A stretch of 64,000 bases of DNA from Chrysoperla carnea (lineage: Eukaryota > Arthropoda > Insecta > Neuroptera > Chrysopidae): positions 138,763,172 to 138,827,171 of the forward strand of contig NC_058337.1 in the NCBI RefSeq assembly GCF_905475395.1, written 5' to 3'. Shown piece by piece: positions 11,677 through 49,644 of the stretch. The translations under genes were made by a program, and so were the position numbers. Positions within the stretch are counted from its first letter, which is position 1; the number at the start of each line of letters is the position of its first letter. The notes under the pieces were generated by a model. That model was not told where the DNA came from and did no database searches. It saw only the letters and a program-made list of their open reading frames with translations.

Positions 11677-11822
11677 AGTGCTTGCATTGCTCTATCTTTC
11701 ATAGTTGGTATACCAAGCGACCTAAGTTTCCCATTGGCCTTTGGTATATAAACCCTCCTAAGAGGATATGGCTTGTAACCGCGTTGCCTCAAGTTCATTA
11801 TTGCATGAGATTTAAGAGCTGG
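11677..11822 (-). pseudogene. ltrA: group II intron reverse transcriptase (LtrA-type), internal fragment
   Basis: On the minus strand this segment reads the RT-0/RT-1 region of a bacterial group II intron protein ([20 protein letters not shown], then [16 protein letters not shown]), about 48 residues. The upstream part of the same ORF lies 37.5 kb away at 49,374-49,644. With one copy of the 4-base duplication CTGG, the two pieces join in frame. Downstream, the ORF is cut by the IS200 at 11,676, so the catalytic YADD part of the RT is absent from the window. Confidence 0.85.
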
Positions 11823-12378
11823 ATTAATATCTTGTAGACCAGATATTTAAATAAAAATTTATTTATTTAATTAAATTTACAATTTAATTTACACTTGTAC
11901 AAAATTAAAGTAACAACAATTAAAAATAAATATTTTAATGAAACGAATTATTTAACAATCCGAACGTATGTCAAACGATTGTAATAATAAGTAATATTGA
12001 AACAAAGATATCCGAACCCGAACATACGTCAAAAAGTTTGGATACTAAGTATTTTTGTACATTAGATAGTTTACTTTATATATGCTTTTAAAATATTGCT
12101 TAGTACTTAAGAAATGTGTTAAAATATCCTTTTTGTAATATGATCTTTTGTGACCGTCCAGATGGTATAACATTAATATTATTAAGGGTCAACTTTCTCT
12201 TAATATTTAAAGGACAGTTTTCTGAGAAATATTTGAGTATAGCAATATTTAAAATAAACTTTCTAAAATAACTATTCTAATTTATGTTTACTAATAAACA
12301 AATGCGTGACATGCACATGTTGCATTATATTATGGTTTTAAGTCTAAAAAAAATATAAGTAATAGGGAATATATAATT
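11823..12378 (-). repeat. LTR (3' LTR of the minus-strand element)
   Basis: The ends in transcript orientation are AATTATATATTCCC and TTAAT, and the length of 556 bp equals the partner. The polypurine tract is at 12,379-12,388. The three differences noticed relative to the other LTR lie near 12,229 and near 12,287-12,296. Confidence 0.85.
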
Positions 12379-13109
12379 CCTCCCTTCTTAGAATGAACTT
12401 CCGTTGTTTACAAGGTAGTTCGATCAACATAAAGCATTGGTATTGATATTCCAACCCTTTCTAATTGAGTTCGATAAATATCAGGTATTGGCACAGTTTG
12501 TGTTTTATGAAAATCCTTGGACCATACTTTAGAAAATATAAATTATACCAGTTCCAAATCTGTTGTAGGTATTTTCCAAATCTTCTATATTTTCTAGGTG
12601 TAGATGTTTATTTTTGTTGAATAATATTTGTTCCATTTCGATATTAGTATATGTAGTTTCCAATGTTCCATATCGTATACCATTCATATCCATATAACAT
12701 TGGTTCAGGGTAATATGAAGTTTACCAACAAAATTGGTAATGTTTTTTTTTTTTTTTCACATGACGAACTAATATTTAATCCGGTGTTTGTAAAAACTAT
12801 AAAATGATTAGTAACTACTAACAGTGTCCAATACGATTTTCCAGTATTTCCATTTCACATGTATTAAGTTTTCTGTCAGGAAGTTGCGTTGGGTAACAAA
12901 TGTAGTCTTGTTCTATTCTTTTGTGTTTTTTATTTCTTATAAATGAATATTCGTTGGGATTATGTAGGATTAAATTAGTTTCGGGATTTATTTTACTATA
13001 ATTTGTAGGGATAGGATATATAATCGTTAAGGTAAAGTTAGCTGAATTTAATGCTTTCTATTTTAATAACTCAAAATATGTCTAGAAATAACGTTTTCTG
13101 TAGCTACTC
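12379..13109 (-). pseudogene. env-like remnant of the LTR element
   Basis: Downstream of pol and upstream of the 3' LTR on the minus strand, the position of env in errantiviruses, there are short open stretches with scattered Cys residues and several stops or shifts. No intact frame longer than about 60 codons exists. The assignment rests on position plus weak resemblance to insect errantivirus envelope proteins, so it is tentative. The hAT-like element is inserted at its upstream side. Confidence 0.4.
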
Positions 13110-14691
13110 CAGTTGCGGATTTACCAGCAGGCTGAGTAGGCTGGAGCCTATGGCGGCAAATTTTAAGGGGCGGCAAATTTAGTTCATAAATTTTTTATTT
13201 CGATTGACAAAATTTAGAAAAAAATTATAATACACACACAAAATACGAATTTCAAAAATTATAGAGGAATTAAAATATTCAACAAAAACCGAAATATAGT
13301 CCTATATACAGTGCTAAATAATAAATATCTCAAAATCTCTGCATAAACAATTGCTAAACGCTTTTGATTATAATGTAATGATCATGAATTTTTAGAATAT
13401 CGCAATAGCGATTCCATATTATAGTCGAAATTTAGTTATTTTTACATATTTTCTTCACTGATAATTACTATAATTTTTTCTCCGTGTACCTAATAATTAT
13501 GAGATCTCCTTACACAATTCAATCTTGACACAAATATCGATGGTCTAATCATGATTGCTGCAGCAAGTTTGCAAATTGCAAATTCTATTCCAGAAAGTTA
13601 TTTCTTTATGCGTAAAAAAAATACTGACTAATTTTTATTAAATAAAAAACTAGTTCGATATCTTATAGAGATTCAGAATAAGTATAGTCTTTTTGTTTAA
13701 ATCAATCGAATAACTGATATTTGAACGATTGCAACATGACAATAAAAAATTCCCTCTACTAAATATGAAGTTAGACAATTTGCGGATTAGAAAATGGATA
13801 CATTTTATCAGTTAATTATTTTATTTGTAGTAAGAAAAAGTTTGGAAAATCCAGATGATCATGCCTTAAGCGCTTATGTCGTACACGAATTATTTAAATT
13901 GAATGTTTACATTTGTTAACTTTTTCACAAAGCCAACTTTTTTAGAAAATACAAATAATTTTTATGAGCTCAGCGATTATTTTTTCTTTTTGATAAGTTG
14001 CTTTTTTAAATAATATACATGTACATCGTATTTGTTAGACACGGTTTAATGTGAGAAAACATCGGATTTAGATTTTTAGGCAAGAGTCGACCTCCGATCG
14101 ACTTTAAGTCAAGAAAAGCTAAACGCTTTAGCTCTTGTGCTTAGAGTCAGAGCTAATAAACAAGATTTCGTACGACGATATAATAAATGATTTTGCGAAT
14201 TCAAAGTGTCGCAAAACAGTATTGTAATGCTTTTATAATTTGACTTGAATTATAATACTAACAAATAATTAAGAAAGGATATATTTATTGTGTTGTTTTG
14301 TAACTGTAAGTGTAATAATAAATATTTATCAACGTTCGCCAAATCTAGATTTTTTGTGTAAGCTTTATTCCTATTACGTAAGTATTGTATAGTTTTAACA
14401 CATACCTTAACTTACTTTAAAATTGGTACATGTTTGAGATATTTTTTGCATAAAATATTGTTTTTTGATAATTCTTTGCTGTAAAATAATCAAGGATCTA
14501 ACACGGTACCATAGTTTTCGATGATACTAACCATACGGGAAAAGTTGATGTAATGAGGATAATGGAGCACAAATCATAAAGTTGCAATTTTATTGATAGA
14601 TAATTGATATGATTGTGAACTAAGATATCAAAATTTAGAGGCGGCAAAAATTGAATAGCCTACGGGCGGCAAATCTCTAAATCCGCCACTG
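13110..14691. mobile_element. non-autonomous hAT-like DNA transposon
   Basis: The ends are inverted and imperfect: the left begins CAGTTGCGGATTTACC, and the right, read inward on the other strand, begins CAGTGGCGGATTTAGAG. Both then show TAGGCT and GGCGGCAAAT blocks. The flanking 8-bp duplication AGCTACTC is exact (13,102-13,109 and 14,692-14,699), the hallmark of hAT elements. The 1,582-bp interior has no long reading frame, so it depends on a transposase elsewhere in the host. It lies within the LTR element between pol and the env-like remnant. Confidence 0.85.
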
Positions 14692-14699
14692 AGCTACTC

Positions 14700-14973
14700 G
14701 AATACAAGTAATTATGTTGTCTATGTGCTGTTGACCAAAATATCTAGCTTGAAACCGAATTAAAAAAAATTATGATTGTAAGATTTGTTATTTATTTATT
14801 TATTTTATCTTTTTCTTAAATTCAATACGAATAGTCCTTGAGCAGTGCTAATATCTTTATATGTCGTTATCTGTTGTTTCACATAATTCAATCGATTATT
14901 TTTTTCTTACTTTAATTTTTCCTTTGTGATAATTTTGTATTTTCTGGGCATTTTTAACTTTAAAAATTTTACC
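14700..14973 (-). pseudogene. end of retrotransposon pol and start of env-like region
   Basis: On the minus strand 14,973-14,896 continues the C-terminal tail of the gypsy integrase that is read at 46,440-46,287 on the far side of the outer Maverick, up to a TAA at 14,896-14,898. The two parts join in frame when the TTTACC duplication (14,968-14,973 and 46,281-46,286) is counted once. The remaining bases to 14,700 look like the start of the env-like region. Confidence 0.6.
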
Positions 14974-16085
14974 AGTAGAAGAGTCATGTACCTCCTGGCG
15001 CAGTTTGACCTCAAGTAACCCCGCTTGGATGGTACACTTTTCAAAAAAGGGCAAACCTAGGTGAATGTTGGAAACCTCGGAAGTTGGATGACGTCATTGA
15101 CCAATAGTAAATCAAGATGGCGTTGGGAGGTGTGGTGGGGGTGAGGAATGACATAAACGGGGCTTGACCAATAGTGATGGGCGTGGTTGACAGGAGTGTG
15201 TTTCTTGGAAGTGGGGCTTAAAGGGGGCGGGAATTGGACGTTAGATAATCGAGCCCACTTTCAACCCCAAAGTATGGTACACTTTTCCAAAAAGGGCAAA
15301 CCTAGGTGAATGTTGGAAACCTCGGCATTGACCAATAGTAAATCAAGATGGCGTCGGGAGGTGTGGTGGAGGGGAATAATGGCTGCCTAAGCATTGATGA
15401 CGTCATTGGCTTTGACCAATAGTGGCGGAGAGTGAACGGGGGGCGGGACGTTGACATTAGTCAGCAATTTTCAAGAATATGTTAATTTGACCTTGAAAAA
15501 TATTGTAATTTGACACTTTAAATATACATGATAAAATTCAAGACACGTGACCGGATGTTAATATTTTTTTTTTATTGAATTAGCAATGTAATATGACACT
15601 TGAAATTTACATAATAAAAATACATGTTCAAACTTGTTTGAATGGACTTTGATCTTAAAATAATTTTACACGTGTCAGCAATTTTCAAGAATATGTTAAT
15701 TTGACCTTGAAAAATATGATATCATCATCTTGTTACAAGTTCAAACTTGTTTGAAATAATTTTACATATGTCAAAACACGTGACCGGATGTTAATATTTT
15801 TTTTTTTATGATTAAGCAATGTAATATGACACTTGAAATTTACATAATAAAAATACATGTTCAAACTTGTTTTGAATGGACTTTGATCTTAAAATAATTT
15901 TACACGTGTCAGCTATTCTCAAGAATATGTTAATTTGACCTTGAAAAATATGATATCATCATCCTGTTACAAGTTCAAACTTGTTTGAACATGTTCAAAC
16001 TTGTTTGAACTTGTTTAAACTTGTCTGAATTCCAAGAAAAAATAATTAGTTTGAATTACGATTATAAAAATATCAAATTACAACT
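14974..16085 (+). repeat. outer Maverick left terminal inverted repeat
   Basis: It matches the complement of 45,195-46,280 over about 1.1 kb. The outer 450 bp is GC-rich and modular, with repeated GACCAATAGT (CCAAT box), TGACGTCA (CRE-like, e.g. 15,089-15,096) and GGGGGCGGG (GC box) blocks. The inner 600 bp is AT-rich with repeated ACGTGACCGGATG and CAAACTTGTTTGAA units. The outer part looks promoter-like. Confidence 0.8.
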
Positions 16086-16134
16086 GGGGTATAAATTAAA
16101 AAAAAGCCTTAAACTTATTAGTATTAAACGAAAA

Positions 16135-16571
16135 ATGCTTCAAACATTTTTATATTTGCACTATTTGTTGCACAGAAGTAAGTTTTAAAAATTTTGTGTT
16201 CATATTTTTAACTCGTGAATAATAATAATATTTATTAATTGTGTAATTTTTGTTTTAGTGGAATGGAACAAAGCCCTAGAAGTGCTCACTGAGCTAATTG
16301 AGCACAAAAATTTTCAAGACCGTAGAGTCTTCGAAATCGTCTATTTGTTGACGATGAGTAAGTCTCAAAATTTTTTTATTTTTCTTTACAATAATTTATT
16401 AAAGGTTTTGTTTTTATTATTTTTTTAGAGCCGGATCATTACTTTATCCGGTCAGTGAGGATCGCTCAGCAATTAGTTGAGAGTGCTTTGCCGGATGAAA
16501 GTGAGTTCATTGTATACTTTTCTTCTTTTGTAAAATTTCTAATGTTTTTTTCTTTCTTTTTTTCAGGTTAA
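16135..16571 (+). CDS. tiny four-exon gene just inside the outer Maverick TIR
   Basis: This gene has no single long ORF. Four exons join in frame: 16135-16177, 16259-16357, 16429-16500 and 16567-16571. Each boundary has consensus signals: GTAAGT, GTAAGT and GTGAGT donors, and TTTTAG, TTTTTTAG and TTTTTTTCAG acceptors. The predicted product is about 72 aa, mostly helical, with a hydrophobic N-terminus encoded by exon 1 followed by a charged helical part. I recognise no family. The inner Maverick lacks it at the matching position. Three clean introns in a 440-bp gene argue it was kept for a function. RNA evidence would settle it. Confidence 0.55.
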
Positions 16572-16831
16572 TATTTTTAAATAATTACTATTATTTATTT
16601 ATTTATTTTTATTTATTTTTATTATAAATATATAAACATTAAAAATATTTAAATATTTTTATATTGTTTTGTGTTAGTTAAAAATTGCTTCAATAAAATT
16701 TCATGAACCTAGTCTAATATATATTCATATTAAAAAAATACATTTCCTTTTTTAAAACACAAATATGTTCACAAAAGCGGTCCACTATGACAAAATTTTT
16801 TTGTTACAAGTATGTTCGCAAAAACTTTCCA

Positions 16832-17070
16832 CTATAAAAGGAGACTTTTTTTATCAATATATGAATCATGTAAAGAGTCGAACCCTAACCACGTGACTTT
16901 AACGTTAGATCCATGTTTAGCTAAGACCTTTTCCACTAAATAAATGTTTGGATCGTGAACTTTTTGTAATTCTTCAGCATAGAAACCACCCTTTATATCT
17001 TTGTTGTTGTAATCCTTCAATAAATATGTTCTTGGGTTTGTAAGTTTCACCTCGTGAATGGTGAATATTT
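16832..17070 (-). pseudogene. integrase 3'-end fragment, inverted copy 1
   Basis: About 72 codons of the Maverick integrase C-terminus including the chromodomain tail, nearly identical to 34,610-34,826 but on the opposite strand. It continues into the same 3' flank as the intact gene (16,760-16,830). There is no catalytic core. It is one of three displaced integrase tails in the outer element. Confidence 0.8.
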
Positions 17071-17274
17071 CTGGTAACTACTCCGATTTTATAAGTTTTT
17101 GTTAAAAACTACTCCGATTTTATAAGTTTTTTAACAAAATTGATTTGATAACTGCTTTAATACTCTGATTTTTTCAATTTTTTTAATAAAATTGTTTTTA
17201 TATCTGCTTTAATACTCTGATTTCTCAGTTCATATCTGGTTCATATCCAAATCTAACGGGACAGGAGAAAGAGA

Positions 17275-18415
17275 ATTCTTAAGAATATGTTGAAATAGAT
17301 ATCATCTAACCTTGAAAAATATTGTAATTTGACACTTTAAATATACATGATAAAATTCAAGACACGTGACCGGATGTTTATTTTTTTTTTTTTTATGTTG
17401 AAATAGATAACATCTAACCTTGAAAAATATGATATCATCATCCTGTTACAAGTTCAAACTTGTTTTAATCGACTTAAAATAATTTTACACGTGACCGGAT
17501 GCTAATATTTTTTTATGATTAAGCAATGTAATATGACACTTGAACGTGTTAGATAATAATTTGCAAATCTGAATTCCAAGAAAAGAATATTATGAGTCTG
17601 CAATTTTCAAGAATATGTTGAAATAGATATCATCTAACCTTGAAAAATATTGTAATTTGACACTTTAAATATACATGATAAAATTCAAGACACGTGACCG
17701 GATGTTTATTTTTTTTTTTTATGTTGAAATAGATAACATCTAACCTTGAAAAATATGATATCATCATCCTGTTACAAGTTCAAACTTGTTTTAATCGACT
17801 TAAAATAATTTTACACGTGACCGGATGCTAATATTTTTTTATGATTAAGCAATGTAATATGACACTTGAACGTGTTAGATAATAATTTGCAAATCTGAAT
17901 TCCAAGAAAAGAATATTATGAGTCTGCAATTTTCAAGAATATGTTGAAATAGATATCATCTAACCTTGAAAAATATTGTAATTTGACACTTTAAGTATAC
18001 ATGATAAAATTCAAGATACGTGACCGGATGTTAATATTTTTTATGATTAAGCAATGTAATATGACACTTGAAATTTACATAATAAAAATACATGTTCAAA
18101 CTTGTTTGAATGGACTTTGATCTTAAAATAATTTCACACGTGTCAGCAATTTTCAAGAATATGTTAATTTGACCTTGAAAAATATGATATCATCATCTTG
18201 TAACAAGTTCAAACTTGTTTGAAATAATTTTACATGTGTCAAAACACGTGACCGGATATTAATATTTTTTTATGATTAAGCAATGTAATATGACACTTGA
18301 AATTTACATAATAAAAATACATGTTCAAACTTGTTTGAACTTGTTTAAACTTGTCTGAATTCCAAGAAAAAATAATTAGTTTGAATTACGATTATAAAAA
18401 TATCAAATTACAACT
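17275..18415. repeat. tandem copies of inner-TIR sequence
   Basis: A roughly 328-bp unit starting AAGAATATGTTGAAATAGAT occurs at about 17,281, 17,608 and 17,936, the first two nearly identical. It contains the ACGTGACCGGATG and TTCAAACTTGTT modules of the terminal repeats. The block ends at 18,415 with the same internal boundary sequence (AAATTACAACTTTTTTAGTGG) as a real TIR, showing a TIR end was duplicated or captured inside the element. Confidence 0.7.
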
Positions 18416-18774
18416 TTTTTAGTGGTGGGGGTAATGCTATAAAATTGTGTTGACATCGAAGAAGAAAGTCAAGCATTATTTTAAAATCATTCCTATATTG
18501 AATTTTGTTACTGCAAGATATATATATTTTATTGTTATACATCAGAAATTTCCGAATAAAAAATCATTTTATAAAATCTATGTATTTTTATTTTTAAATA
18601 TTTATAATACAACACTGTTTTTTTAAATAAGAAACTTACAATAAAAAATAATATTTTTACAATGTGATATTTTTTATTTCATATAAATCACAAGTATGTT
18701 CACAAAAGCGGTCCACTATGACAAATTTTTTTTTTTTTGTTACAAGTATGTTCATAAAAACGTTCCACTATAAA
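18416..18774. other. AT-rich spacer
   Basis: No gene is seen. The first 80 bp resemble the region just inside the right TIR of the inner element (around 39,940-40,020). From about 18,690 it matches the 3' flank of the integrase gene, inverted. Confidence 0.4.
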
Positions 18775-18985
18775 AGGAGACTTTTTTTATCAATATATGA
18801 ATCGTGTAAAGAGTCGAACCCTAACCACCGGACTTTAACTTTGGATCCACGTTTAGCTAAGACCTTTTCCACTAAATAAATGTTTGGATCGTTTTGTAAT
18901 TCTTAACTTTTTGTAATTCTTCGGTATAGAAACGACCCTTTATACCTTCGTTGTTGTAATCCTTCAATAAATATGTTAATTTGAC
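18775..18985 (-). pseudogene. integrase 3'-end fragment, inverted copy 2 (decayed)
   Basis: The same integrase tail as at 16,832, on the minus strand, with an internal duplication (AACTTTTTGTAATTCTT repeated near 18,890-18,920) and several substitutions. It does not read through. Confidence 0.7.
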
Positions 18986-19015
18986 CCTGAGAGTCATAAT
19001 TCCGTCTATTAGCGT

Positions 19016-19237
19016 TTGTTGATGTTACAATTTTTAAATAGTTGCGCATGTCTTGCTCTCAATAATGTTTTGGATTGTTCACATCAAGCTGAAAATATAA
19101 AAAATGGACCTGTAGATGTTAGGTTAGAATTGAAATGCTTGCAAAATATACCAGAGAATACATCAGCATTTTGTTTGATCTTACATGATCGAGTTGTAGA
19201 ATACAATCCGATAACGAATGAAGTCAAAAAGTACTAA
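19016..19237 (+). pseudogene. major capsid protein C-terminal fragment
   Basis: The last ~50 codons resemble the C-terminus of the inner element's major capsid protein (shared pattern DxRxE.....PxxxxAxCxxxHDRxxxYNPxTN), but with many substitutions, so this copy derives from a more distant Maverick lineage. The rest of the double jelly-roll is absent. Confidence 0.6.
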
Positions 19238-19327
19238 TTGTGTTATCATCATTATAAATTTGTCTGCAGAAGAGAGCAGTGTCCCTCCGGAACCAATTGC
19301 AAATAGAAATTTAAAACAAAATATATT

Positions 19328-19832
19328 ATGACTTGTTTTGTAGATGTACAAGGATTTAAAAATCAAAAAAAAAAACAAATTTATTATTAAAGAATTTGCT
19401 ATGGTTTCTACAAATTATGTTGAACATTTTATTTTCAAATCACCGGAACCATTGTCAAGCTTAACTTTAAATATTCAAAAACAAGTGCGCTATCTAAGTC
19501 AATTTTATCATGGAATAAGTTGGATAGATGGACACTGCGCATACAGTGAACGTAAACAGTTGATAAGAAACGTTTTAAAAAATTTTGATGTGATCATCGT
19601 AAAAGGATTAGAAAAACTAAAATGGGTTGAAGAATATACTGATGGAGAAATATACAACTTTGAAGATATTAAATGTTATGAAACATTGAAGCAATTAAAA
19701 AATAATTACTCAAGTCGAAGATGTACAAATCACAAATATTCCAATACTATGTGTGCTTTAGAAAATGCTGAAAATATGTATAAAAAATTTAACGAAAAAA
19801 ACATTTGTATATCATTATTACCATTTATTTAA
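19328..19832 (+). pseudogene. homologue of the 162-aa Maverick protein, frameshifted near the start
   Basis: The frame from ATG 19328 begins like the inner element's 162-aa protein (xVDVQGFK). It shifts in an A-rich run at about 19,365-19,378 and then continues in the 19,344-19,832 frame with matching landmarks (FIIKEF, the FKSPEPLSSL region, YHGISW, KGLEKLKW). Protein similarity to the inner copy is low, so the two copies are old. Cys and His near the C-terminus are shared. Function unknown. Confidence 0.55.
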
Positions 19833-20075
19833 AATAAATATTTTTTACATAAAATTTGTATATTTTAATAAAGTTTTTGAAATTTTAATAATTAATTGTT
19901 TAATTTATATTTCCTTTTATTGAATTCATTTTTCGTTTAAAAAACTACACCAACACATTAGTAGTAATATTAGTAATATAGTCAGAAAAATCACACTAAT
20001 TATTGATAAGTTTACATTAAAATAGAAATACATTATTATTATAATTGAAAAATCTCATAATAAGAATAAAAAAGT

Positions 20076-20615
20076 TCATTCAGGGGCGAAATATTTAATT
20101 GCTCCATATTTTGATCCAACTTTCTGTATTGTATCTTCAATAACTTCGTAAGTCAGCATTCCTCCAGTAATTTTCGAAGCCGTAAATATTAAGTTGTTGA
20201 TCATTTGTTTTATATTTAAGTTTTTATATTCTTCTATAAATACATTCATAAATCCAGAAATTCTAAATAATTCAAACACTGTTACTTCACCCAACATAAT
20301 TTGATCATTTTCATCCCACACATTAAACACTTTATTATTTTGATATTTGGTTAGAGATGATTTAAAACTACCAATTTCCATTTGCACATCATCCAAATCA
20401 TTTAGCATGAATAACATAATTTGTGACTTTTGATTCAATAAATCAAACCAATCTTCTGTTTTTAATACCAACGAACGAAATTTCGATAATAATTTAATTC
20501 TAACATTCCACGTTTTAAGTTCAATACAAATAGTAATTAACTTGCTCTTTGATTTATTTAAATAAAAAGTTTTCTCCATAATATATTGAGAATATTCCAC
20601 AAATTTACGATTCAT
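20076..20615 (-). CDS. 179-aa protein of unknown function, unique to the outer Maverick
   Basis: Starting at the ATG complementary to 20,613-20,615, a 179-aa mixed alpha/beta protein follows the ATPase fragment on the same strand. Residues 24-75 hold regularly spaced hydrophobics (LITICIELKTWNVRIKLL), and the middle reads GEVTVFELFRIS. I recognise no family; a DNA-binding accessory role is conceivable but not shown. It is open in frame with the upstream ATPase remnant, giving a chance 289-codon fusion frame. No counterpart is seen in the inner element. Confidence 0.5.
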   Translation of the reverse strand: MNRKFVEYSQYIMEKTFYLNKSKSKLITICIELKTWNVRIKLLSKFRSLVLKTEDWFDLLNQKSQIMLFMLNDLDDVQMEIGSFKSSLTKYQNNKVFNVWDENDQIMLGEVTVFELFRISGFMNVFIEEYKNLNIKQMINNLIFTASKITGGMLTYEVIEDTIQKVGSKYGAIKYFAPE

Positions 20616-20638
20616 TGTTGATTCTTGTTGTGTTGAAG

Positions 20639-20677
20639 AATTTCCATTCCATAATGTATGATTATGGAATGGAAATT
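20639..20677. other. perfect 17-bp hairpin at the ATPase-fragment junction
   Basis: AATTTCCATTCCATAAT (20,639-20,655) and its exact complement (20,661-20,677) flank the 5-nt loop GTATG. It lies exactly where ATPase similarity ends (about 20,678), so it could be a rearrangement scar or a terminator between convergent or tandem genes. Confidence 0.6.
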
Positions 20678-21318
20678 TTATTACAACAAATCCATTTGGT
20701 GAACTCCAACAATGTCGATATAAATCATGAAATTTTTGAAAATTCATATCAGAGCCAACATGATTGTAGAATATGTGTTTTAGATTCATTTCATCCGTTT
20801 TGAATAGCACCAAGCAATTAACATTGCCCCTTATGTTATGCTTTAGAACACGTGTGTAGCTCTGACATAGGTAGAAACAATCAATTTTTCGATGACGATC
20901 CATACTAAAGTATTCTCTACTTCTCTGTTGTGAATGACAGCTCACATCATCAAAAATGAAAAGACTTTTTTATCGAGCTTCATTCAGACTAGGAATTTCA
21001 CTAGTATCACTAAGTGGAAAAATAGCCAACCACTTCCACTAATTTTAAAGCCTCTTCTAGTAATTGATATTTCGGTTGGTAAACAGATTTACTGTACACA
21101 TAAATGTTTTCAAAGCGTAAACCATTTTCATCTTAAATTAAATTCAACATAACATTGGTTTTACCACAACCACTAGGGCCACATATTATTGTTCATAGTG
21201 AATCTGAAAATAGACGACCATGATATGTTTGTGTGTCTGTATTTTCTGGTAATAAACACTCAGAGCAGGTTGTTGTTTATGAAAATGCAATGTAACTAAG
21301 ACTAAAATTTCAATACAA
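20678..21318 (-). pseudogene. Maverick packaging ATPase, broken copy
   Basis: This region aligns with the inner ATPase (26,740-27,394). The 5' part (21,318-20,946) has several indels and a stop, while the 3' part (20,945-20,678) is open. The Walker A region (CGPSGCGKTN) is still readable near 21,170. The C-terminal residues of the enzyme are replaced at the hairpin at 20,639-20,677. It is non-functional. Confidence 0.75.
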
Positions 21319-21460
21319 CCCAGAGCACTTTACGATACAGATCTACATGCGTATGCTAAACAATTTAAAATTCCGTATTTTTGTAGTGTTTTTATGTGTG
21401 ACACCCTACCTAAAAGATCATATAAATATGACACTTTAAGTATAAATAATATTAAAAAAT
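21319..21460 (+). pseudogene. adenain-like protease, 5' fragment
   Basis: Matches 28,225-28,330 (N-terminal part of the inner protease), with stops. Similarity to the inner element then jumps to the spacer upstream of the DUF8207 gene (31,260-31,430), so the capsid gene block has been deleted between them. Confidence 0.65.
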
Positions 21461-21611
21461 TAGATGATTATGTATTTTGTTTTAATATAAAATTATAATT
21501 TTTTAAATAAAATTTTTTTATATAATCTATAGTACAAGTTGATTTATTATATTCCATATAAAGAGCATATTATATGGGTTGATTGATGATGCTTGTTAGA
21601 TTTGAAAACCT

Positions 21612-23890
21612 CTTTCTAAACAGACCAGTATTAAACAGGTCAAAACCAGTATTAAACAGATACAGACCAGTATTAAACAGGTCAAAACCAGTATTAAACA
21701 GATACAGACCAGTATTAAACAGGTTAAAACCAGTATTAAACAGATACAGACCAGTATTAAACAGGTTAAAACCAGTATTAAACAGGTTAAAACCAGTATT
21801 AAACAGATACAGACCAGTATTAAACCGATACAAACCAGTATTAAACAGGTTAAAACCAGTATTAAACAGGTTAAAACCAGTATTAAACAGGTTAAAACCA
21901 GTATTAAACAGATACAGACCAGTATTAAACAGGTTAAAACCAGTATTAAACAGATACAGACCAGTATTAAACAGGTTAAAACCAGTATTAAACAGATACA
22001 GACCAGTATTAAACAGGTTAAAACCAGTATTAAACAGGTACAGACCAGTATTAAACAGGTTAAAACCAGTATTAAACAGGTTAAAACCAGTATTAAACAG
22101 GTTAAAACCAGTATTAAACAGGTTAAAACCAGTATTAAACAGATACAGACCAGTATTAAACAGATACAAACCAGTATTAAACAGGTTAAAACCAGTATTA
22201 AACAGGTTAAAACCAGTATTAAACAGGTTAAAACCAGTATTAAACAGATACAGACCAGTATTAAACAGGTTAAAACCAGTATTAAACAGATACAGACCAG
22301 TATTAAACAGGTTAAAACCAGTATTAAACAGATACAGACCAGTATTAAACAGATACAAACCAGTATTAAACAGGTTAAAACCAGTATTAAACAGGTTAAA
22401 ACCAGTATTAAACAGGTTAAAACCAGTATTAAACAGATACAGACCAGTATTAAACAGGTTAAAACCAGTATTAAACAGATACAGACCAGTATTAAACAGG
22501 TTAAAACCAGTATTAAACAGATACAGACCAGTATTAAACAGGTTAAAACCAGTATTAAACAGGTTAAAACCAGTATTAAACAGGTTAAAACCAGTATTAA
22601 ACAGGTTAAAACCAGTATTAAACAGATACAGACCAGTATTAAACAGGTTAAAACCAGTATTAAACAGATACAGACCAGTATTAAACAGGTTAAAACCAGT
22701 ATTAAACAGATACAGACCAGTATTAAACAGGTTAAAACCAGTATTAAACAGGTACAGACCAGTATTAAACAGGTTAAAACCAGTATTAAACAGGTTAACA
22801 CCAGTATTAAACAGGTTAAAACCAGTATTAAACAGGTTAAAACCAGTATTAAACAGGTTAAAACCAGTATTAAACAGACACAGACCAGTATTAAACAGAT
22901 ACAAACCAGTATTAAACAGGTTAAAACCAGTATTAAACAGGTTAAAACCAGTATTAAACAGGTTAAAACCAGTATTAAACAGATACAGACCAGTATTAAA
23001 CAGGTTAAAACCAGTATTAAACAGATACAGACCAGTATTAAACAGGTTAAAACCAGTATTAAACAGATACAGACCAGTATTAAACAGGTTAAAACCAGTA
23101 TTAAACAGGTACAGACCAGTATTAAACAGGTTAAAACCAGTATTAAACAGGTTAAAACCAGTATTAATCAGGTTAAAACCAGTATTAAACAGATACAGAC
23201 CGGTATTAAACAGGTTAAAACCAGTATTAAACAGATACAGACCAGTATTAAACAGATACAAACCAGTATTAAACAGGTCAAAACCAGTATTAAACAGGTC
23301 AAAACCAGTATTAAACAGGTTAAAACCAGTATTAAACAGGTCAAAACCAGTATTAAACAGGTCAAAACCAGTATTAAACAGATACAGACCAGTATTAAAC
23401 TAGTCAAAACCAGTATTAAAGAGATACAGACCAGTATTAAACAGGTTAAAACCAGTATTAAACAGGTCAAAACCAGTATTAAACAGGTTAAAACCAGTAT
23501 TAAACAGATACAGACCAGTATTAAACAGGTTAAAACCAGTATTAAACAGATACAGACCAGTATTAAACAGATACAGACCAGTATTAAACAGGTCAAAACC
23601 AGTATTAAACAGGTCAAAACCAGTATTAAACAGATACAGACCAGTATTAAACAGGTTAAAACCAGTATTAAACAGGTCAAAACCAGTATTAAACAGGTTA
23701 AAACCAGTATTAAACAGATACAGACCAGTATTAAACAGGTTAAATCCAGTATTAAACAGGTCAAAACCAGTATTAAACAGATACAGACCAGTATTAAACA
23801 GGTTCAAACCAGTATTAAACAGGTTCAAACCAGTATTAAACAGGTCAAAACCAGTATTAAACAGGTTAAAACCAGTATTAAACAGGCCTG
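21612..23890. repeat. 21-bp tandem repeat array, about 108 units
   Basis: Units of 21 bp share the core ACCAGTATTAAACAG. Two main variants alternate: one with ATACAG after the core, one with GTTAAA or GTCAAA. Variant order often runs ABAB with runs of B. Because 21 is a multiple of three and the core lacks stops in two frames per strand, four very long ORFs appear. These are best read as by-products. The array is flanked on the left by the sequence that precedes the DUF8207 gene in the inner element and on the right by an integrase tail. Confidence 0.9.
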
Positions 23891-23924
23891 TTTACATACA
23901 GACCTGTTTAGATACAGACCTGTA

Positions 23925-24119
23925 TATTTATTGAAGGATAACAGCAACGAAGATATAAAGGGTGGTTTCTATGCCGAAGAATTACAAAAAGTTCACGATC
24001 CGAACATTCATTTAATGGAAAAGGTCTTAGCTAAACGTGGATCCAACGTTAAAGCCAGGTGGTTAGTGTTCGACACTTTACACGATTCATATATTGACAA
24101 AAAAAGTCTTATTTTATAG
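23925..24119 (+). pseudogene. integrase 3'-end fragment, copy 3 (direct)
   Basis: The last ~62 codons of the chromodomain integrase on the plus strand, directly after the 21-bp array. This position corresponds to the integrase location in the inner element, so a deletion removed the fiber gene and the integrase core. The 3' flank (24,120-24,430) matches 34,827-35,061. Confidence 0.8.
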
Positions 24120-27355: not shown

Positions 27356-27446
27356 TTTTAATGTAACTAAGACTAAAATTTCAATACAACCCATTTTATA
27401 AACATTTAAATATATGTGAACTTAATTGTTTAAATCATTTAGTAGT

Positions 27447-28211: not shown

Positions 28212-28212
28212 T

Positions 28213-38700: not shown

Positions 38701-39607
38701 GGTACTTATTCAAGCGTTGAGGATCCTTTTCAACCGGGTAAAGTGCTGACATTATCGACCATAAAAAGCAGTGTTGGTCATCATTCCGGACATTAATCAC
38801 AGCTTTTCTACATTTAATTGCAGATGGTAGTTCGCAAAATGTTCCAGCTGTGATCGGAGAGTACTTATTCATGTGGACTCGAATATTTATGATCATGTCA
38901 AGAGCCCAACCGCTATCGCGTTCCTGGAATTCTTCCAATTTTTTCAACAAATAGTTTTTGACATGATCAGTGTACCACTCCTGCATGTCCGTTGTCAGAT
39001 ACATTTCCTTGGCCGGCGTTATAAAAGTTTTCAAATCCTCCTCTTTGGTGATGGGCTTAATAAAATTGCCCGTGAACATAATATACACCTGAAATAAAAT
39101 CTCATTAGACTATTTAAATTATAAATCTTAAATTTTACTTACCTTGAGGGGATGCTTCACTAGCTCACGCCGAACGTGTCTTCTAAACATTGGAAATGCC
39201 CGGTTGAAAAATATATTTGGATCTTTATAATCCAAATTTGTAATCATACCAGTCTTCACCCTGCCCTGATGGTGGGTTTCAATTGTCTCCCAGATTAGAT
39301 GTCGATTTTGTTTTTTGGTGACTCCACCACCTTGTTTAACTAAATCTAATCGCAGTCGGTGAAGTTGCCGCTGGTATGATTTACAAAGTCCAATATTAGC
39401 TTCAAGACGCAGAGGATTTTCTTTCTTTAACATCAACATCTTTTTGAATAAGCGGATGTTCTGCTTATTAAGTATCATCCATCGCTCAGCTTCCTCCACC
39501 GTCTTGATGAGCCTCAACGCTCTCTCCACTTTCTTCATCATATCAGTGCTACCACCTTGAGGTACCATGTTTAGCGTCTGCATAACATTTTGTTCGTAGG
39601 TGTCCAT
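35726..39607 (-). CDS. protein-primed DNA polymerase B, four exons
   Basis: Exons on the minus strand are 39,607-39,143, 39,088-37,879, 37,819-37,518 and 37,453-35,726, with introns of 54, 59 and 64 bp. GT donors and AG acceptors are at every boundary and phases match. The joined product is about 1,234 aa. The exonuclease motifs are YADFEA and [10 protein letters not shown], and polymerase motifs are A ([10 protein letters not shown]), B ([13 protein letters not shown]) and C (YTDTDS). This is the replication enzyme of Polintons. Spliceosomal introns show a eukaryotic gene. A CHxCGKDF zinc-type motif lies near the end of exon 2. No lesion is seen. Confidence 0.9.
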
Positions 39608-39805
39608 CTTTCAAAAAAATTATATTTAAGTTTCACAATATTATTTAAAAAATTTATACACTTACCGTTATATTTTCAAATACTAAGCAAAATATACGTT
39701 ACCGAACGTTCAACACTAAAGTTAACTTACAACTGAGTAATATTTGTTTTTTGTATAAAATATATAGACTAAGTTTAGAATAATAAATATACCAAAAACA
39801 AAATA

Positions 39806-39923
<118 letters not shown>

Positions 39924-40114
39924 TAATGTAAAAAATATATGCAGAAAAACTAACTGAAGCAAAGGTGAATTTCAAAAGAGATACTTCAACAGCTACGTAC
40001 ATCACTTTTTATAGCATTATCCCCCCCACTAAAAAAGTTGTAATTTGATATTTTTATAATCGTAATTCAAACTAATTATTTTTTCTTGGAATTCAGACAA
40101 GTTTAAACAAGTTC

Positions 40115-41133
40115 AAACAAGTTTAAACATGTATTTTTATTATGTAAATTTCAAGTGTCATATTATATTGCTGATTCAATAAAAAAATATTAACATCCGG
40201 TCACGTATCTTGAATTTTATCGTGTATACTTAAAGTGTCAAATTACAATATTTTTCAAGGTTAGATGATATCTATTTCAACATATTTTTGAAAATTGCTG
40301 ACTCATAATATTCTTTTCTTGGAATTCAGATTTGCAAATTATTATCTAACACGTTCAAGTGTCATATTACATTGCTTAATCATAAAAAAATATTAGCATC
40401 CGGTCACGTGTTTTGACACATGTAAAATTATTTCAAACAAGTTTGAACTTGTTACAAGATGATGATATCATATTTTTCAAGGTCAAATTAACATATTCTT
40501 GAAAATTGCTGACACGTGTAAAATTATTTTAAGATCAAAGTCCATTCAAACAAGTTTGAACATGTATTTTTATTATGTAAATTTCAAGTGTCATATTACA
40601 TTGCTTAATCATAAAAAAATATTAACATCCGGTCACGTATCTTGAATTTTATCATGTATATTTAAAGTGTCAAATTACAATATTTTTCAAGGTCAAATTA
40701 ACATATTCTTGAAAATTGCTGACTAATGTCAACGTCCCGCCCCCCGTTCACTCTCCGCCACTATTGGTCAAAGCCAATGACGTCATCAATGCTTAGGCAG
40801 CCATTATTCTCCTCCACCACACCTCCCGACGCCATCTTGATTTACTATTGGTCAATGCCGAGGTTTCCAACATTCACCTAGGTTTGCCCTTACGTCCCGC
40901 CCCCTGTTCACTCTCCGCCACTATTGGTTGAAGCCAACCCCCCGTTTAGCCATTCCTCACCCCACCACACCTCCCAACGCCATTTTGATTTTTACAGCGC
41001 TACTATTGGTCAATGACGTCATCTATCCCCTCCAACTTCGCATTCAACCGAGGTTTCCCACATTCACCTAGGTTTGCCCTTTTTTGAAAAGTGTACCATT
41101 CTTTTGCGCCAGGAGTGGGCTGACTCTTCTACT
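40115..41133 (-). repeat. inner Maverick right terminal inverted repeat
   Basis: Complement of 25,280-26,300. It ends in GACTCTTCTACT followed by the target duplication CTTATA at 41,134-41,139. The same CCAAT, TGACGTCA and GC-box modules occur in its outer 400 bp. Confidence 0.85.
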
Positions 41134-44100
41134 CTTATAGTCCTCAAAAGTAAGTTTTCGGATAGCTGACTTCTTGAGACCCTTGGATCGTTTAGTCTCT
41201 TTTTTATTTTGCACCCGAATAGCATACATTTTGCTACGTAATCCGACAAATTCTAGCATAACATCACCATTATTTTCATCGGACATTAAACCCTTGACTT
41301 TCTTATTACGTAGTGGCATACCATAGATGTTGTCGGGTGCATAGTCAGCCGTATCAAAACGATTAATATCCTGTTTCATGACCTCATAGACGTCAGTATT
41401 TTTCACGCTATAAATTAGACTATCGGTGTCTGTGTATAATAACCTGACATTTGTGGGGTTGTACCGTTGGTACATGTAGTTGTAGTGGAAGTCATACACA
41501 AACGTTTTCGATATGTCTAAAATTGTGAAGCCTATGTAGATGGGTTTGTTGAAACGTATCTGTGATTTTTTCATTTCAACAATACTGACGTCATTGTCGA
41601 GCACCATCATACTGTGAAAATTGGGATTGGCAATTAATTTCTTCACACCATGTTTTCCATCCCAATTTTTTCGTATGTACACAACCCGATGTTTCCTCAC
41701 ATTCTCCATGGTTTTACCGAAGATGGCATTAATCATGAGTTTGAATAATGCTTTTTCAAACTCATTTGAGGCGTTCTTGCGCATCTCGGTATTGAAATCA
41801 ATATATGGTTTCAACCATGCAGATTGATCGAATTGTAACACACGGTGGTATTTTGTTACCTTAACACCGAGTTGTGTATACAGTTTTAAATTCCTGTAGT
41901 GCACGACATAGTTGGTCTTATTGTAAAGGGTTGACAGAAGATATTTTTGTTTTGATCCAGGTGGTTTCGTTGTCTCCGGACATGGCGGTAAATCGCTAAA
42001 GTTATCATGTAGATGTTGGGGTATTTCAAGGTCTACTTCTAAAATGTACCCGACTGGTGAATCATCTGCAACATCCTCGATGTTTGGTGTGTCGACCCAC
42101 TTAAAATTTCCTGTTGGTAGGTATCCACACATTGCTGCACCATATAGGTTCACCACATCATAATACATAAGGTAGACATCTTCTTGAGTTTTATCATACC
42201 CCTCTTCCATGTACTTATTGTTTGCCTTAGCATAGCGATTAGAACATTGACTTACACCGCCTCTGATTCCTTTCTCGATAAACAACAAGTCATCAATATC
42301 CGTGAACAATTCCAATTTGATATTGGTGTATTTCAACATGGCGCTCCACGTATAGCCAGGAAGTGTGTAATAGTGACTAGGATCGAGACTATAGCTATGA
42401 ATACAAGTGTTACGGAAATTTTCAAAAATATCCGCAAGTAGTAACACATCAGTTTTCATATACAGGTCTGAATAATCACCTAGTGTATGTAAATTGAATG
42501 TGTTCCATACCTGTATCGCATGGTTATAATCCTCATCCGTTATGTGTTCATCTGTTAACACACTGTAGAACGCCTCCTTTGGTGGTAATTTTGTCTCTTG
42601 GAGACGTCCCCAGCTACTCATGTATTCATATGGAAATACACCTTTTCTCGTTAGCAATTGAAATTGTTCATCATTACTGACCTATAAAAAATTAAAAAAC
42701 AAATTACAACCCTGTATTAAAAATTAATTATTTTTTATCATTTACCTCTTTATGTAAAATGGATTTTTTATCATTATCTAAATATGAGGCCAGATTTTCC
42801 AACTTGTCTGCGAGAAATCGGAAGGAATCAATGAATCTTAATTGAATGTCCGAGACGTGCTTTGTGAAACTGATGTACTTTTCTTTGTTGATGGGCAACA
42901 CATCAACTTGACCGTCGATTTCCGTCAGCAGAGCTTCAATAATAAAATGCGAATCGTATCCACTTAAGTTGTGCATCACAACAGGTATCACCCTTGAATC
43001 TTGATAATGCAGATTACAAAATTGGTGTGCTGCTCCACGGTAGATACCTAAAATAGATTAATATAAAATTAGATGAAATTAAAAAATAATAAATAACCTG
43101 CATTACCTGTGCGATGTGAATGGTCGCGAACACGTATGGAATTGGATACGAAATCTTTACCACAAATGTGACACTTCTCTGCTGACATAAAATCCAGTTC
43201 TTGTTCGACGGTGAGCGGATACATTGGTTTAACGTGTTTTATTTTTTGCTCTAATGAGTACGCTACTTGTTCCAGTTCATGAACAAACCACTTGACACAA
43301 TCAGCACCACGGTATGCCTTATAAAACGATTGGTTGGGATCATGGGTACAATGAACATAGTAACCTACACTGTAGGGTACATGTTTTTGAATATTTTTTG
43401 TATAAGACCCATGATCCATTTCCATGTCTTCATGATGTTGTGGTACCAATAGTGCCTCAAAGTCAGCGTACACCATATACTCAACACGTTCCTTGCTGTT
43501 GAAATCTTTGAACTCAACGAACCGCTCGTCATCAGTTTCAGGCATTCGTACCCGCACCGCTTCTTTCTCACCACAATTTACTGAATGCTGTTGGAGTTTG
43601 ACTTCTGTAGCAAAATAGTTGAGACATCGATCACATAAATAAATTTGGCGGCGGTGTTTTGTTACACCCGATCGACACAACTTTGCTAAATTTTTTATCC
43701 AGCAAAAGTGGTGACTGTTCCCATTCTCCACAGCCAATAGATGAATTTTCTGCCCCGCAGTGTTCGAACTAACGCGTACAGGGAAAATTTCCAAACCATG
43801 TAGAAACGTATCTTTGTAGCCGTACACGTTAATCGATAAATGCGGGTTCATCTTTTCAAATTTATTAATTTGATCCAGAGACATGGGAAACTTTAATCCA
43901 TCAAATTTTAAATGATATTTATAGTGCTGGTACTTAGTTAAACGTTGAGGATCCTTTTCAACCGGGTAAAGTGCTGACATTATCGACCATAAAAAGCAGT
44001 GTTGGTCATCATTCCGGACATTAATCACAGCTTTTCTACATTTAATTGCAGATGGTAGTTCGCAAAATGTTCCAGCTGTGATCGGAGAGTACTTATTCAT

Positions 44101-44835
44101 GTGGACTCGAATATTTTTGATCATGTCAAGAGCCCAACCGCTATCGCGTTCCTGGAATTCTTCCAATTTTTTCAACAAATAGTTTTTGACATGATCAATG
44201 TACCACTCCTGCATGTCCGTTGTCAGATACATTTCCTTAGCCGACGTTATAAAAGTTTTCAAATCCTCCTCTTTGGTGATGGGCTTAATGAAATTGCCCG
44301 TGAACATAATATACACCTGAAATAAAATCTCATTAGACTATTTAAATTATAAATCTTAAATTTTACTTACCTTGAGGGGATGATTCACTAGCTCACGCCG
44401 AACGTGTCTTCTAAACATTGGAAATGCCCGGTTGAAAAATATATTTGGATCTTTATAATCCAAATTGGTAATCATACCAGTCTTCACCCTGCCCTGGTGG
44501 TGGGTTTCAATTGTCTCCCAGATTAGATGTCGATTTTGTTTTTTGGTGACACCACCACCTTGCTTAACTAAATCTAATCGCAGTCGGTGAAGTTGCCGCT
44601 GGTATGATTTACAAAGTCCAATATTAGCTTCAAGACGCAGAGGATTTTCTTTCTTTAACATCAACATCTTTTTGAATAAGCGGATGTTCTGCTTATTAAG
44701 TAGCATCCATCGCTCAGCTTCCTCCACCGTCTTGATGAGCCTCAACGCTCTCTCCACTTTCTTCATCATATCAGTGCTACCACCTTGAGGTACCACGTTT
44801 AGCGTCTGCATAACATTTCGTTCGTAGGTGTCCAT
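41134..44835 (-). pseudogene. outer DNA polymerase B, exons 1-3 and most of exon 4, split by the inner Maverick
   Basis: The exon structure is identical to the inner gene: 44,835-44,371, 44,316-43,107, 43,047-42,746 and 42,681 onward. The coding frame of exon 4 is cut at 41,134 by the inner TIR and resumes at 25,279. Protein differences from the inner copy are concentrated in exon 2, and exon 4 is essentially identical. All exonuclease and polymerase motifs remain, so the gene was intact until the inner element arrived. Confidence 0.9.
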
Positions 44836-45040
44836 CTTTCAAAAAATTATATTTAAGTTTCACAATAATATTTAAAAAATTTTACACTTACCGTTATATT
44901 TTCAAATACTAAGCAAAATATACGTTACCGAACGTTCAACACTAAAGTTAACTTACAACTGAGTAATATTTGTTTTTTGTATAAAATATATAGACTAAGT
45001 TTAGAATAATAAATATACCAAAAACAAAAAAAAACAAAAA

Positions 45041-45083
<43 letters not shown>
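45041..45083. repeat. AAT microsatellite, about 14 units
   Basis: Shorter allele of the tract at 39,806-39,920, preceded by an A-rich AAAAAACAAAA stretch. It lies upstream of the outer polymerase gene. Confidence 0.85.
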
Positions 45084-45084
<1 letters not shown>

Positions 45085-45194
45085 TAACGTAAAAAATATA
45101 TGCGGAAAAAACTAACTGAAGCAAAGGTGAATTTCAAAAGAGATACTTCAACAGCTACGTACATCACTTTTTATAGCATTATCCCCACCACTAA

Positions 45195-46280
45195 AAAAGT
45201 TGTAATTTGATATTTTTATAATCGTAATTCAAACTAATTATTTTTTCTTGGAATTCAGACAAGTTTAAACATGTTCAAACAAGTTTGAACATGTTCAAAC
45301 AAGTTTGAACTTGTAGCAGGATGATGATATCATATTTTTCAAGGTCAAATTAACATATTCTTGAAAATTGCTGACACGTGTAAAATTATTTTAAGATCAA
45401 AGTCCATTCAAACAAGTTTGAACATGTATTTTTATTATGTAAATTTCAAGTGTCATATTACATTGCTTAATCATAAAAAAATATTAATATCCGGTCACGT
45501 GTTTTGACACATGTAAAATTATTTCAAACAAGTTTGAACTTGTTACAAGATGATGATATCATATTTTTCAAGGTCAAATTAACATATTCTTGAAAATTGC
45601 TGACACGTGTAAAATTATTTTAAGATCAAAGTCCATTCAAACAAGTTTGAACATGTATTTTTATTATGTAAATTTCAAGTGTCATATTACATTGCTTAAT
45701 CATAAAAAAATATTAACATCCGGTCACGTGTCTTGAATTTTATCATGTATATTTAAAGTGTCAAATTACAATATTTTTCAAGGTCAAATTAACATATTCT
45801 TGAAAATTGCTGACTAATGTCAACGTCCCGCCCCCCGTTCACTCTCCGCCACTATTGGTCAAAGCCAATGACGTCATCAATGCTTAGGCAGCCATTATTC
45901 CCCTCCACCACACCTCCCGACGCCATCTTGATTTACTATTGGTCAATGCCGAGGTTTCCAACATTCACCTAGGTTTGCCCTTTTTGGAAAAGTGTACCAT
46001 ACTTTGGGGTTGAAAGTGGGCTCGATTATCTAACGTCCAATTCCCGCCCCCTTTAAGCCCCACTTCCAAGAAACACACTCCTGTCAACCACGCCCATCAC
46101 TATTGGTCAAGCCCCGTTTATGTCATTCCTCACCCCCACCACACCTCCCAACGCCATCTTGATTTACTATTGGTCAATGACGTCATCCAACTTCCGAGGT
46201 TTCCAACATTCACCTAGGTTTGCCCTTTTTTGAAAAGTGTACCATCCAAGCGGGGTTACTTGAGGTCAAACTGCGCCAGG
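45195..46280 (-). repeat. outer Maverick right terminal inverted repeat
   Basis: Complement of 14,974-16,085, ending CATGACTCTTCTACT, then target duplication TTTACC at 46,281-46,286. Confidence 0.85.
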
Positions 46281-46440
46281 AGGTACATGACTCTTCTACT
46301 TTTACCTTTAATTTCTATTACTTTGTCCTTTGTATATTTGGGTACTATTTTATTTCGGCTATTTGTTACAAAAACATTTTCACCTACTGCTAAAAGTGGG
46401 AGATCAATTCGGTCTATGTTTCGGACTAATTTGGCTTTAA
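46281..46440 (-). pseudogene. gypsy integrase C-terminal tail, first part
   Basis: On the minus strand this region reads a C-terminal integrase segment (VGENVFVTNSRNK is visible) in a frame shifted by one relative to the upstream gag-integrase ORF. It runs into the outer Maverick at 46,280 and resumes at 14,973. Confidence 0.6.
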
Positions 46441-48246: not shown

Positions 48247-48377
48247 ATTAGCTTTGTTATTTTCTAATTTTAATTTTGAGTTATTATGTATTTGGTATAA
48301 TTAAATAATATTTAAAAAATTTTGTTAGTATTATTTAAATTTGAATTTTCTAAATTATAATTAAGCTATATTTTATT

Positions 48378-48656
48378 TCATAATTGTTGATAAATCTTCG
48401 TCCGTATTTGAATCGGAGCTAAGATTTTTTTGAATAATCTAACTTTTAGCTTATTCTTTACTTTAAATTTAGTAGGATGTTTAGGCATTAAGGTGTAGGT
48501 ATTCGAATATTCAACAAAGAAAAATTTACTTACATTTGAAATATGAACACCAACCACATTGTTACGTTTAAATTCCAGATAATTCCAAAAAAGAATACCA
48601 TAAATCTTCGATACGCCGTCGAAAATGGATTTAACCAGTTCCAATGTTGCTTCCAA
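48378..48656 (-). other. leader ORF of unknown significance in the LTR element
   Basis: A 92-codon frame between the primer binding site and gag on the minus strand. Its position is the 5' leader of the retroelement. The basic C-terminus (FKVKNKLKVRLFKK) is visible, but no family is recognised. It may be chance. Confidence 0.3.
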
Positions 48657-48800
48657 TCCAGTAAATTTTATTTTGTACTCTGGTTGATATTAAAAATTTA
48701 TTTGGAGTGTAGATACGTCCCAAAGACTTAAGAACCACTCGTAGAATTTACACAAATTTACGATGGACGCGATAATTTTCGAAAATTTTTTTCTCAAATT

Positions 48801-48818
48801 ATCCTACCGGCTGCGCCA
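48801..48818 (-). promoter_or_regulatory. tRNA primer binding site of the LTR element
   Basis: The complement reads TGGCGCAGCCGGTAGGAT immediately inside the 5' LTR, overlapping its last base. A TGGCGCAG-type site is characteristic of insect errantivirus-group gypsy elements, where it is assigned to tRNA-Ser. Confidence 0.75.
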
Positions 48819-49373
48819 TTAATATCTTGTAGACCAGATATTTAAATAAAAATTTATTTATTTAATTAAATTTACAATTTAATTTACACTTGTACAAAAT
48901 TAAAGTAACAACAATTAAAAATAAATATTTTAATGAAACGAATTATTTAACAATCCGAACGTATGTCAAACGATTGTAATAATAAGTAATATTGAAACAA
49001 AGATATCCGAACCCGAACATACGTCAAAAAGTTTGGATACTAAGTATTTTTGTACATTAGATAGTTTACTTTATATATGCTTTTAAAATATTGCTTAGTA
49101 CTTAAGAAATGTGTTAAAATATCCTTTTTGTAATATGATCTTTTGTGACCGTCCAGATGGTATAACATTAATATTATTAAGGGTCAACTTTCTCTTAATA
49201 TTTAAAGGACAGTTTTCTGAGAAATGTTTGAGTATAGCAATATTTAAAATAAACTTTCTAAAATAACTATTCTAATTTATGTTAACTAATTAACAAATGC
49301 GTGACATGCACATGTTGCATTATATTATGGTTTTAAGTCTAAAAAAAATATAAGTAATAGGGAATATATAATT
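48818..49373 (-). repeat. LTR (5' LTR of the minus-strand element)
   Basis: 556 bp, almost identical to 11,823-12,378. It is followed directly by the CTGG duplication at 49,374-49,377 and the group II intron ORF. Confidence 0.85.
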
Positions 49374-49644
49374 CTGGCGTATTCCAAGTTTCTTTGTCTA
49401 CACCAGCAGTTCTTTTTCCTCGATTCTCAGTCACTCTTCTAACTGCAATAGCTTTACCGCTAAAAGAATGGGTTAGTAGTCGTTGCAAGGCTTTGACTTT
49501 GCCCCATCTACCTTCCTTTGTTGCCTTTACGATACGCACCTGATAACTCTTAACAATTCTATTACATTCTTGCCAGTTTATGCTGTGCCAGTCTGTATTG
49601 TTGTCAGTAGACGCACTAACTGTCTTTTTATTTACAGCTAACAT
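49374..49644 (-). pseudogene. ltrA: group II intron reverse transcriptase (LtrA-type), N-terminal part
   Basis: Starts at the ATG complementary to 49,642-49,644 with an AAAGGAGAAA ribosome binding site. The 90 residues include the RT-0 leader typical of these proteins (WHSINWQECNRIVKSYQVRI, then RRVTENRGKRTAGVDKETW). The frame is cut after WNTP by the LTR element and continues at 11,822. The longer upstream frame to 49,836 is intron RNA, not protein. Confidence 0.85.

Follow-up and report, generated by a model that had tools for sequence, protein, structure and literature searches.

Host transposons layered on Rickettsia-derived DNA in chromosome 1 of the lacewing Chrysoperla carnea

How do insect transposons come to lie, one inside another, in a bacterial gene? 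The question is raised by one window of 64,000 nucleotides in chromosome 1 (C1) of the lacewing Chrysoperla carnea (contig NC_058337.1, positions 138,763,172 to 138,827,171). Here the open reading frame (ORF) of a group II intron reverse transcriptase is split by a long terminal repeat (LTR) retrotransposon, which itself holds a hAT-type element and two Mavericks, M1 and M2, the second lying within the first. The root of this nest is bacterial and its layers are eukaryotic elements, as a sequence-only reading of the window had proposed. Our re-check of the sequence confirmed that the nest at 11819..49377 is real, with its layers where that reading had placed them and with all four target duplications exact: CTGG (4 bp) for the LTR element, AGCTACTC (8 bp) for hAT, TTTACC (6 bp) for M1 and CTTATA (6 bp) for M2 (Table 1). 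Agreement of all 24 duplicated bases by chance has a probability of about 7e-14 at the base composition of the window, a guide only, with the boundaries taken as given. No N occurs in the window, nor in those sampled loci where N was counted.

Table 1. Coordinates of the nest, its bacterial flanks and associated features in the window
Feature	Position	Strand	Remarks
Bacterial (Rickettsia-derived) flank	1..11818	.	IS256/Mutator-type, IS3 and IS200 transposases, ParA, DnaA_N-domain protein
IS200-type element cutting the intron ORF (bacterial layer)	11087..11676	+	ORF 11143-11607
Group II intron ORF, next piece, across the LTR element	11677..11818	-	adjoins the first piece in the Candidatus Megaera alignment
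CTGG duplication, left	11819..11822	.	
LTR (3' LTR in gag sense)	11823..12378	-	
AGCTACTC duplication, left of hAT	13102..13109	.	
Non-autonomous hAT-type element	13110..14691	+	arrived inside the LTR element
AGCTACTC duplication, right of hAT	14692..14699	.	
TTTACC duplication, left of M1	14968..14973	.	
Maverick M1, interrupted by M2	14974..46300	.	inverted ends of ~1.1 kb
M1 PolB ORF, portion left of M2, as far as its stop	25091..25279	-	
CTTATA duplication, left of M2	25274..25279	.	
Maverick M2	25280..41133	.	inverted ends of 955 bp
M2 A32-type ATPase	26672-27421		
M2 phospholipase A2-like	27426-28211		
M2 double jelly-roll capsid	29510-30736		
M2 integrase	33903-34826		
M2 PolB ORF	35726-37453 (and 37841-39109)		
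CTTATA duplication, right of M2	41134..41139	.	
M1 PolB ORF, piece right of M2	41140..42681	-	identified as PolB through the M2 copy
TTTACC duplication, right of M1	46301..46306	.	
LTR element ORF, 619 aa	46441..48300	-	Integrase_H2C2 56.1 bits (over cut-off); gag 20.1 bits, under the cut-off of 24.1
LTR (5' LTR in gag sense)	48818..49373	-	
CTGG duplication, right	49374..49377	.	
Bacterial flank	49378..64000	.	group II intron, Toprim protein, IS21 istA/istB, Rpn-type protein, IS3, IS256; holds the host repeat 52246-56202
Group II intron reverse transcriptase ORF, N-terminal piece	49378..49851	-	RVT_N 108.6 bits
Group II intron RNA (RF02012, D1-D4-7)	50056..50199	-	103 bits against a gathering threshold of 34
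Host repeat of ~4 kb (52246-56202) in IS21 istA	52240..56208	.	ATGATA on both sides

Order of the layers

The intron is recognised both by the RVT_N domain of its ORF and by the intron RNA. In genome-wide searches of the C. carnea assembly (559,487,470 bases, 337 contigs) this RVT_N match is the only one. The two halves of the ORF align to adjoining stretches of a single gene of the Candidatus Megaera polyxenophila plasmid pPCS148 (AP017966.1), with 80.7-81.8% DNA identity on either side of it at the LTR insertion, but the plasmid gene is uninterrupted at that site. The bases left unaligned in the window (5+10, minus the 4 duplicated) equal the 11 bases between the two plasmid stretches. The earlier reading held that each excision restores the frame below, and for the intron ORF this is the case.

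The same holds for the uppermost layer. The pieces of the M1 PolB gene that flank M2 share a frame and have their counterpart in the uninterrupted PolB copy within M2. When the M2/M1 junction was searched against the genome (40 matches scored, 457 candidates), the only full-length match was the window itself; the other 39 covered the uninterrupted PolB side only, M2's own gene among them. M2 is a Maverick/Polinton, with a 6-bp duplication, long inverted ends (4 mismatches in 955 bp), PolB, an integrase, an A32-type ATPase and a jelly-roll capsid. Its capsid matches a C. carnea protein at 96% identity, and the next best of the 120 matches listed reaches 59%. The PolB ORF is identified by its matches, at 53-59%, to PF03175 proteins and named DNA polymerases; it gave no Pfam PolB match itself, a PDB search with it found nothing, and no cysteine protease gene was matched among the M2 ORFs scanned. 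M1 is a decayed element of the same class. Its ends (10 substitutions and 9 gap positions in ~1.1 kb), 6-bp duplication and PolB are present, and its capsid gene is mostly missing, a fragment remaining near 19016-19198.

Two side observations concern these Mavericks. Both contain a 21/42-bp tandem repeat (window 21498-24119 and 32493-33099) that is open for up to 837 codons, and on both strands. A protein filed under the Enterobacter cloacae complex is 59% identical to insect Maverick PolB and is probably insect DNA in a bacterial record.

For the LTR element the frame claim holds in part: agreement in frame was seen near the M1 junction only, by visual reading of the individual pieces. A single long ORF ends short of this junction, and its 619 aa yielded no reverse transcriptase domain, so the element was already defective. 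No further ORF of at least 120 aa was found in it outside the Mavericks. The copy carries paired LTRs and the 4-bp duplication, and "Gypsy-type" describes the likeness of this defective copy. LTR matches number at least 41 in the genome, 39 of them outside the window (best 40 of 118 candidates scored). The two LTRs differ by 3 substitutions in ~556 bp (0.5%). The insect substitution rate is near 3e-9 per site per generation, at which the LTR insertion would be younger than about a million generations.

The hAT layer has to be re-ordered. The sequence-only reading had taken it as a side branch added at this locus. However, three other LTR copies (C6:10,423,388, C1:49,293,002 and C6:13,809,218) hold hAT between their LTR pairs at an offset of 1296-1305 bp from the LTR start, as against 1287 bp in the window, and the copy in locus L115 shows the same 8-bp duplication at its one readable hAT boundary (best 40 of 226 candidates scored). 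The nearly equal offset and the shared duplication indicate that hAT jumped first, elsewhere, and arrived inside the LTR element; a local insertion is not supported. The 14-base inverted ends of the element, with one difference, are hAT-like. Since no ORF of at least 100 aa, and hence no transposase, was found in the 4-kb stretch around it, the element is non-autonomous, its class is assigned from its ends and duplication, and there is no frame for its excision to restore. The order claimed earlier therefore stands for the LTR element, M1 and M2, where it is unambiguous, and not for hAT. In full, hAT entered the LTR element, this composite entered the bacterial ORF, and M1 and then M2 followed.

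The Rickettsia block

Is the bacterial DNA around the nest a symbiont genome or a part of the chromosome? The window lies in ~1.14 Mb of Rickettsia DNA, transposons included, in nuclear chromosome 1. All 94 IS200 transposase matches fall within C1:138,277,680-139,404,370 (102 of 102 candidates scored). At the left edge (locus L118) the satellite matches run up to base 3663 (C1:138,272,162), and recG sequence follows with no N between them. This recG stretch matches RecG models below the whole-protein cut-offs, as a fragment would. On the right, polymerase III alpha domains are found in locus L024, and beyond 139.410 Mb no bacterial ORF was recognised in L112 and L110. The ten-kb samples taken from the block contain MurJ, a DnaA_N protein, an aminotransferase, a dapA-type gene and polymerase III genes mixed with host elements.

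To the left of the block, the samples at 138.05-138.06 and 138.15-138.16 Mb and most of that at 138.25-138.26 Mb are satellite. The array (C1:138.05-138.272 Mb, loci L009-L011 and L118) keeps one reading frame open for hundreds of codons.

Essential genes in the block are broken. Bacterial rpoB is represented by two rows with broken frames at C1:138,848,654-138,852,699, and nowhere else does bacterial rpoB pass the cut-off; the five weak rows on C3 and C5 were taken as host polymerase genes. The 16S gene gave one strong match (C1:139,382,497, 1191 bits), which lacks ~165 nt, and five weaker rows at four other loci taken as host rRNA (best 5 of 2048 candidates scored). The dnaE gene is apparently split. 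A continuous host junction together with broken essential genes is what a nuclear insertion presents, and a separate symbiont genome is not needed when, among the candidates scored, all IS200 matches lie in one stretch and rpoB lies there only.

The donor group is clear from rpoB. The open rpoB piece matched 83 of 85 family genomes, the first five at 98, 98, 97, 97 and 96%, followed by sixteen at 90-92%, two at 87% and then values of 80% and lower. The rpoB-rpoC DNA is 98.0% identical to the best of the 85 genomes (86 mismatches in 4987 columns). Judged by these identities, the donor probably belonged to the genus Rickettsia. A donor outside this genus had been suggested by a best value of 79% among the best 80 of 588 relatives, a set that lacked the closest genomes, and is ruled out by the 98% match. 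The 16S of the block matches a named Rickettsia metagenome-assembled genome at 95% and 97% in two pieces, and the absent ~165 nt fall between these pieces (2 of 4 genomes gave a match). Membership of the R. bellii clade, to which the accessible text of PMC7762206 assigns the known C. carnea Rickettsia strain, would fit such a donor.

Two rearranged places were met in passing. At C1:139.260-139.274 Mb, inside the block, seven PolB-end matches in both orientations within ~13 kb mark a Maverick piece that was amplified or rearranged. Between C1:139.540 and 139.937 Mb capsid matches occur in pairs ~366.4 kb apart (139,540,376/139,906,777 and 139,570,593/139,937,045), which suggests a 366-kb duplication near the chromosome end, either real or from assembly.

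Origin of the nest and rival explanations

Very probably, DNA from a near relative of a sequenced Rickettsia strain was integrated in the repeat-rich end of C. carnea chromosome 1, decayed there, and then received host transposons on top. In this sequence of events a bacterial group II intron ORF, cut also by an IS200 element, either before the transfer or after it, would be the starting point. Elsewhere in the lacewing genome hAT would have entered a Gypsy-type LTR element; the composite would then have inserted into the intron ORF with duplication of 4 bp, M1 into the pol remnant of the LTR element with duplication of 6 bp, and M2 into the PolB gene of M1 with duplication of another 6 bp. 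The insertion of the 4-kb host repeat into istA would be a separate event. The transfer was probably a single one, and the insertions presumably took place in the germ-line nucleus. The earlier claim of eukaryotic transposition into bacterial DNA is thus right in that the target is derived from Rickettsia, but this target is decayed DNA of an insect chromosome and not the genome of a living symbiont.

Several points weigh against this explanation. Only one edge was read base by base, and the right edge is placed within ~1 kb but is not proven. About 240 kb of the genome was sampled by place, and the block between the samples is unread. All junctions rest on the assembly, because no reads were seen. 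Finally, the many IS200 copies and some of the bacterial ORFs are still open, which fits a young insertion but would fit a living genome too. On the last point one could suppose that a living Rickettsia took up eukaryotic transposons in the cytoplasm and that its genome was misjoined to chromosome 1 in assembly; open MurJ, dapA-like and XerD-like ORFs, besides those of IS200, would agree with this. We consider it most improbable, given the broken rpoB frames, the shortened 16S and the apparently split dnaE, the passage of satellite into recG without N, and the recurrence of Maverick or other host elements in the sampled stretches. The insect transposons most likely entered Rickettsia DNA already resident in the nucleus, not a living bacterium. 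Several transfers, or one transfer followed by rearrangement, in place of the arrival of one clean piece, are conceivable though doubtful. The IS200 rows are unevenly spread, and the inverted Maverick pieces and the likely 366-kb duplication show a rearranged region, but the block has one bacterial 16S and one bacterial rpoB among the candidates scored.

The abundance of Mavericks in the block raises a further question, the answers to which are compatible with nuclear integration followed by host transposition. Ten of 128 capsid rows, two of them in the window, lie in ~0.2% of the genome, which amounts to ~39 times the mean density (rows are matches, some of them fragments; best 126 of 145 candidates scored), and in Curculio weevils Rickettsia insertions are embedded in Mavericks, according to the accessible part of PMC13419823. 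Integrated Rickettsia DNA may therefore be a preferred landing site of Mavericks, or Mavericks may have aided the transfer, yet we regard this as rather unlikely. The region C5:71.6-74.1 Mb is denser, with 38 capsid rows by our own count and no IS200 match, which rules out the block as the sole Maverick-rich place; 6 capsid rows lie in ~0.57 Mb of host DNA on the right-hand side of the block; and the IS200, rpoB and RVT_N matches stay in the block, unlike the genome-wide dispersal in weevils. Accumulation in repeat-rich DNA suffices to account for the density. A causal link, by which Maverick integrase or replication pastes or shelters bacterial DNA, or by which fresh bacterial DNA offers an open landing pad, has in our estimate only a slim chance of being real. 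If it were, the lacewing block would represent an early, undispersed stage of the late state seen in weevils.

Comparison with known insertions and other host elements

The kind of event is already known; the present instance is large and useful. Host retrotransposons occur inside the nuclear Wolbachia insertion (nuwts) of Drosophila ananassae, whose donor is Wolbachia and not Rickettsia, and the exact site of which its authors could not find because of the retrotransposons (PMC4299567). In contrast, one edge and the layers can be read in the lacewing. The Curculio weevils resemble the lacewing in having Rickettsia DNA together with young Mavericks; the accessible text (PMC13419823) describes Rickettsia-derived genes within Mavericks on every chromosome, whereas the markers searched in the lacewing lie in one block.

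Chrysoperla, lacewing and Neuroptera are not named in the available part of the Curculio paper. The corresponding part of the C. carnea genome note (PMC10116181) does not mention Rickettsia, bacteria, cobiont, endosymbiont or insertion, and those of the two lacewing Rickettsia papers mention neither lateral or nuclear transfer (PMC5557424) nor gene transfer or nuclear copies (PMC7762206). An earlier report of the block was not found among the papers listed from the open-licence literature, by which its absence from print is not shown. In the lacewing, a biocontrol insect, the reference genome offers an ordered insertion stack on a roughly megabase block derived from Rickettsia. The block may serve as a weevil-independent test of whether bacterial insertions draw Mavericks, and surveys of C. 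carnea could pick it up as a false Rickettsia signal.

The nest is accompanied by other host insertions in bacterial DNA. The repeat in istA, which the sequence-only reading had not noted, contains 120-bp tandem repeats and an inverted repeat and has at least 153 matches in the genome (from the best 32 of 10318 candidates). Judged by eye, istA reads on past this repeat. Another reverse transcriptase ORF that looks bacterial, with an RVT_1 match, lies at L013:207-2037 (C1:138.450 Mb) and is cut by a Maverick end at L013:1996. The far end of this Maverick was not found in the 2 kb beyond, and a target duplication there is unproven. Of a different kind are reverse transcriptase ORFs near 889 aa on C6, C7, C108, C119, C130 and other contigs, many of them at steps of ~11 kb, which perhaps correspond to the very large X-linked repeat described in the accessible text of the genome note (PMC10116181).

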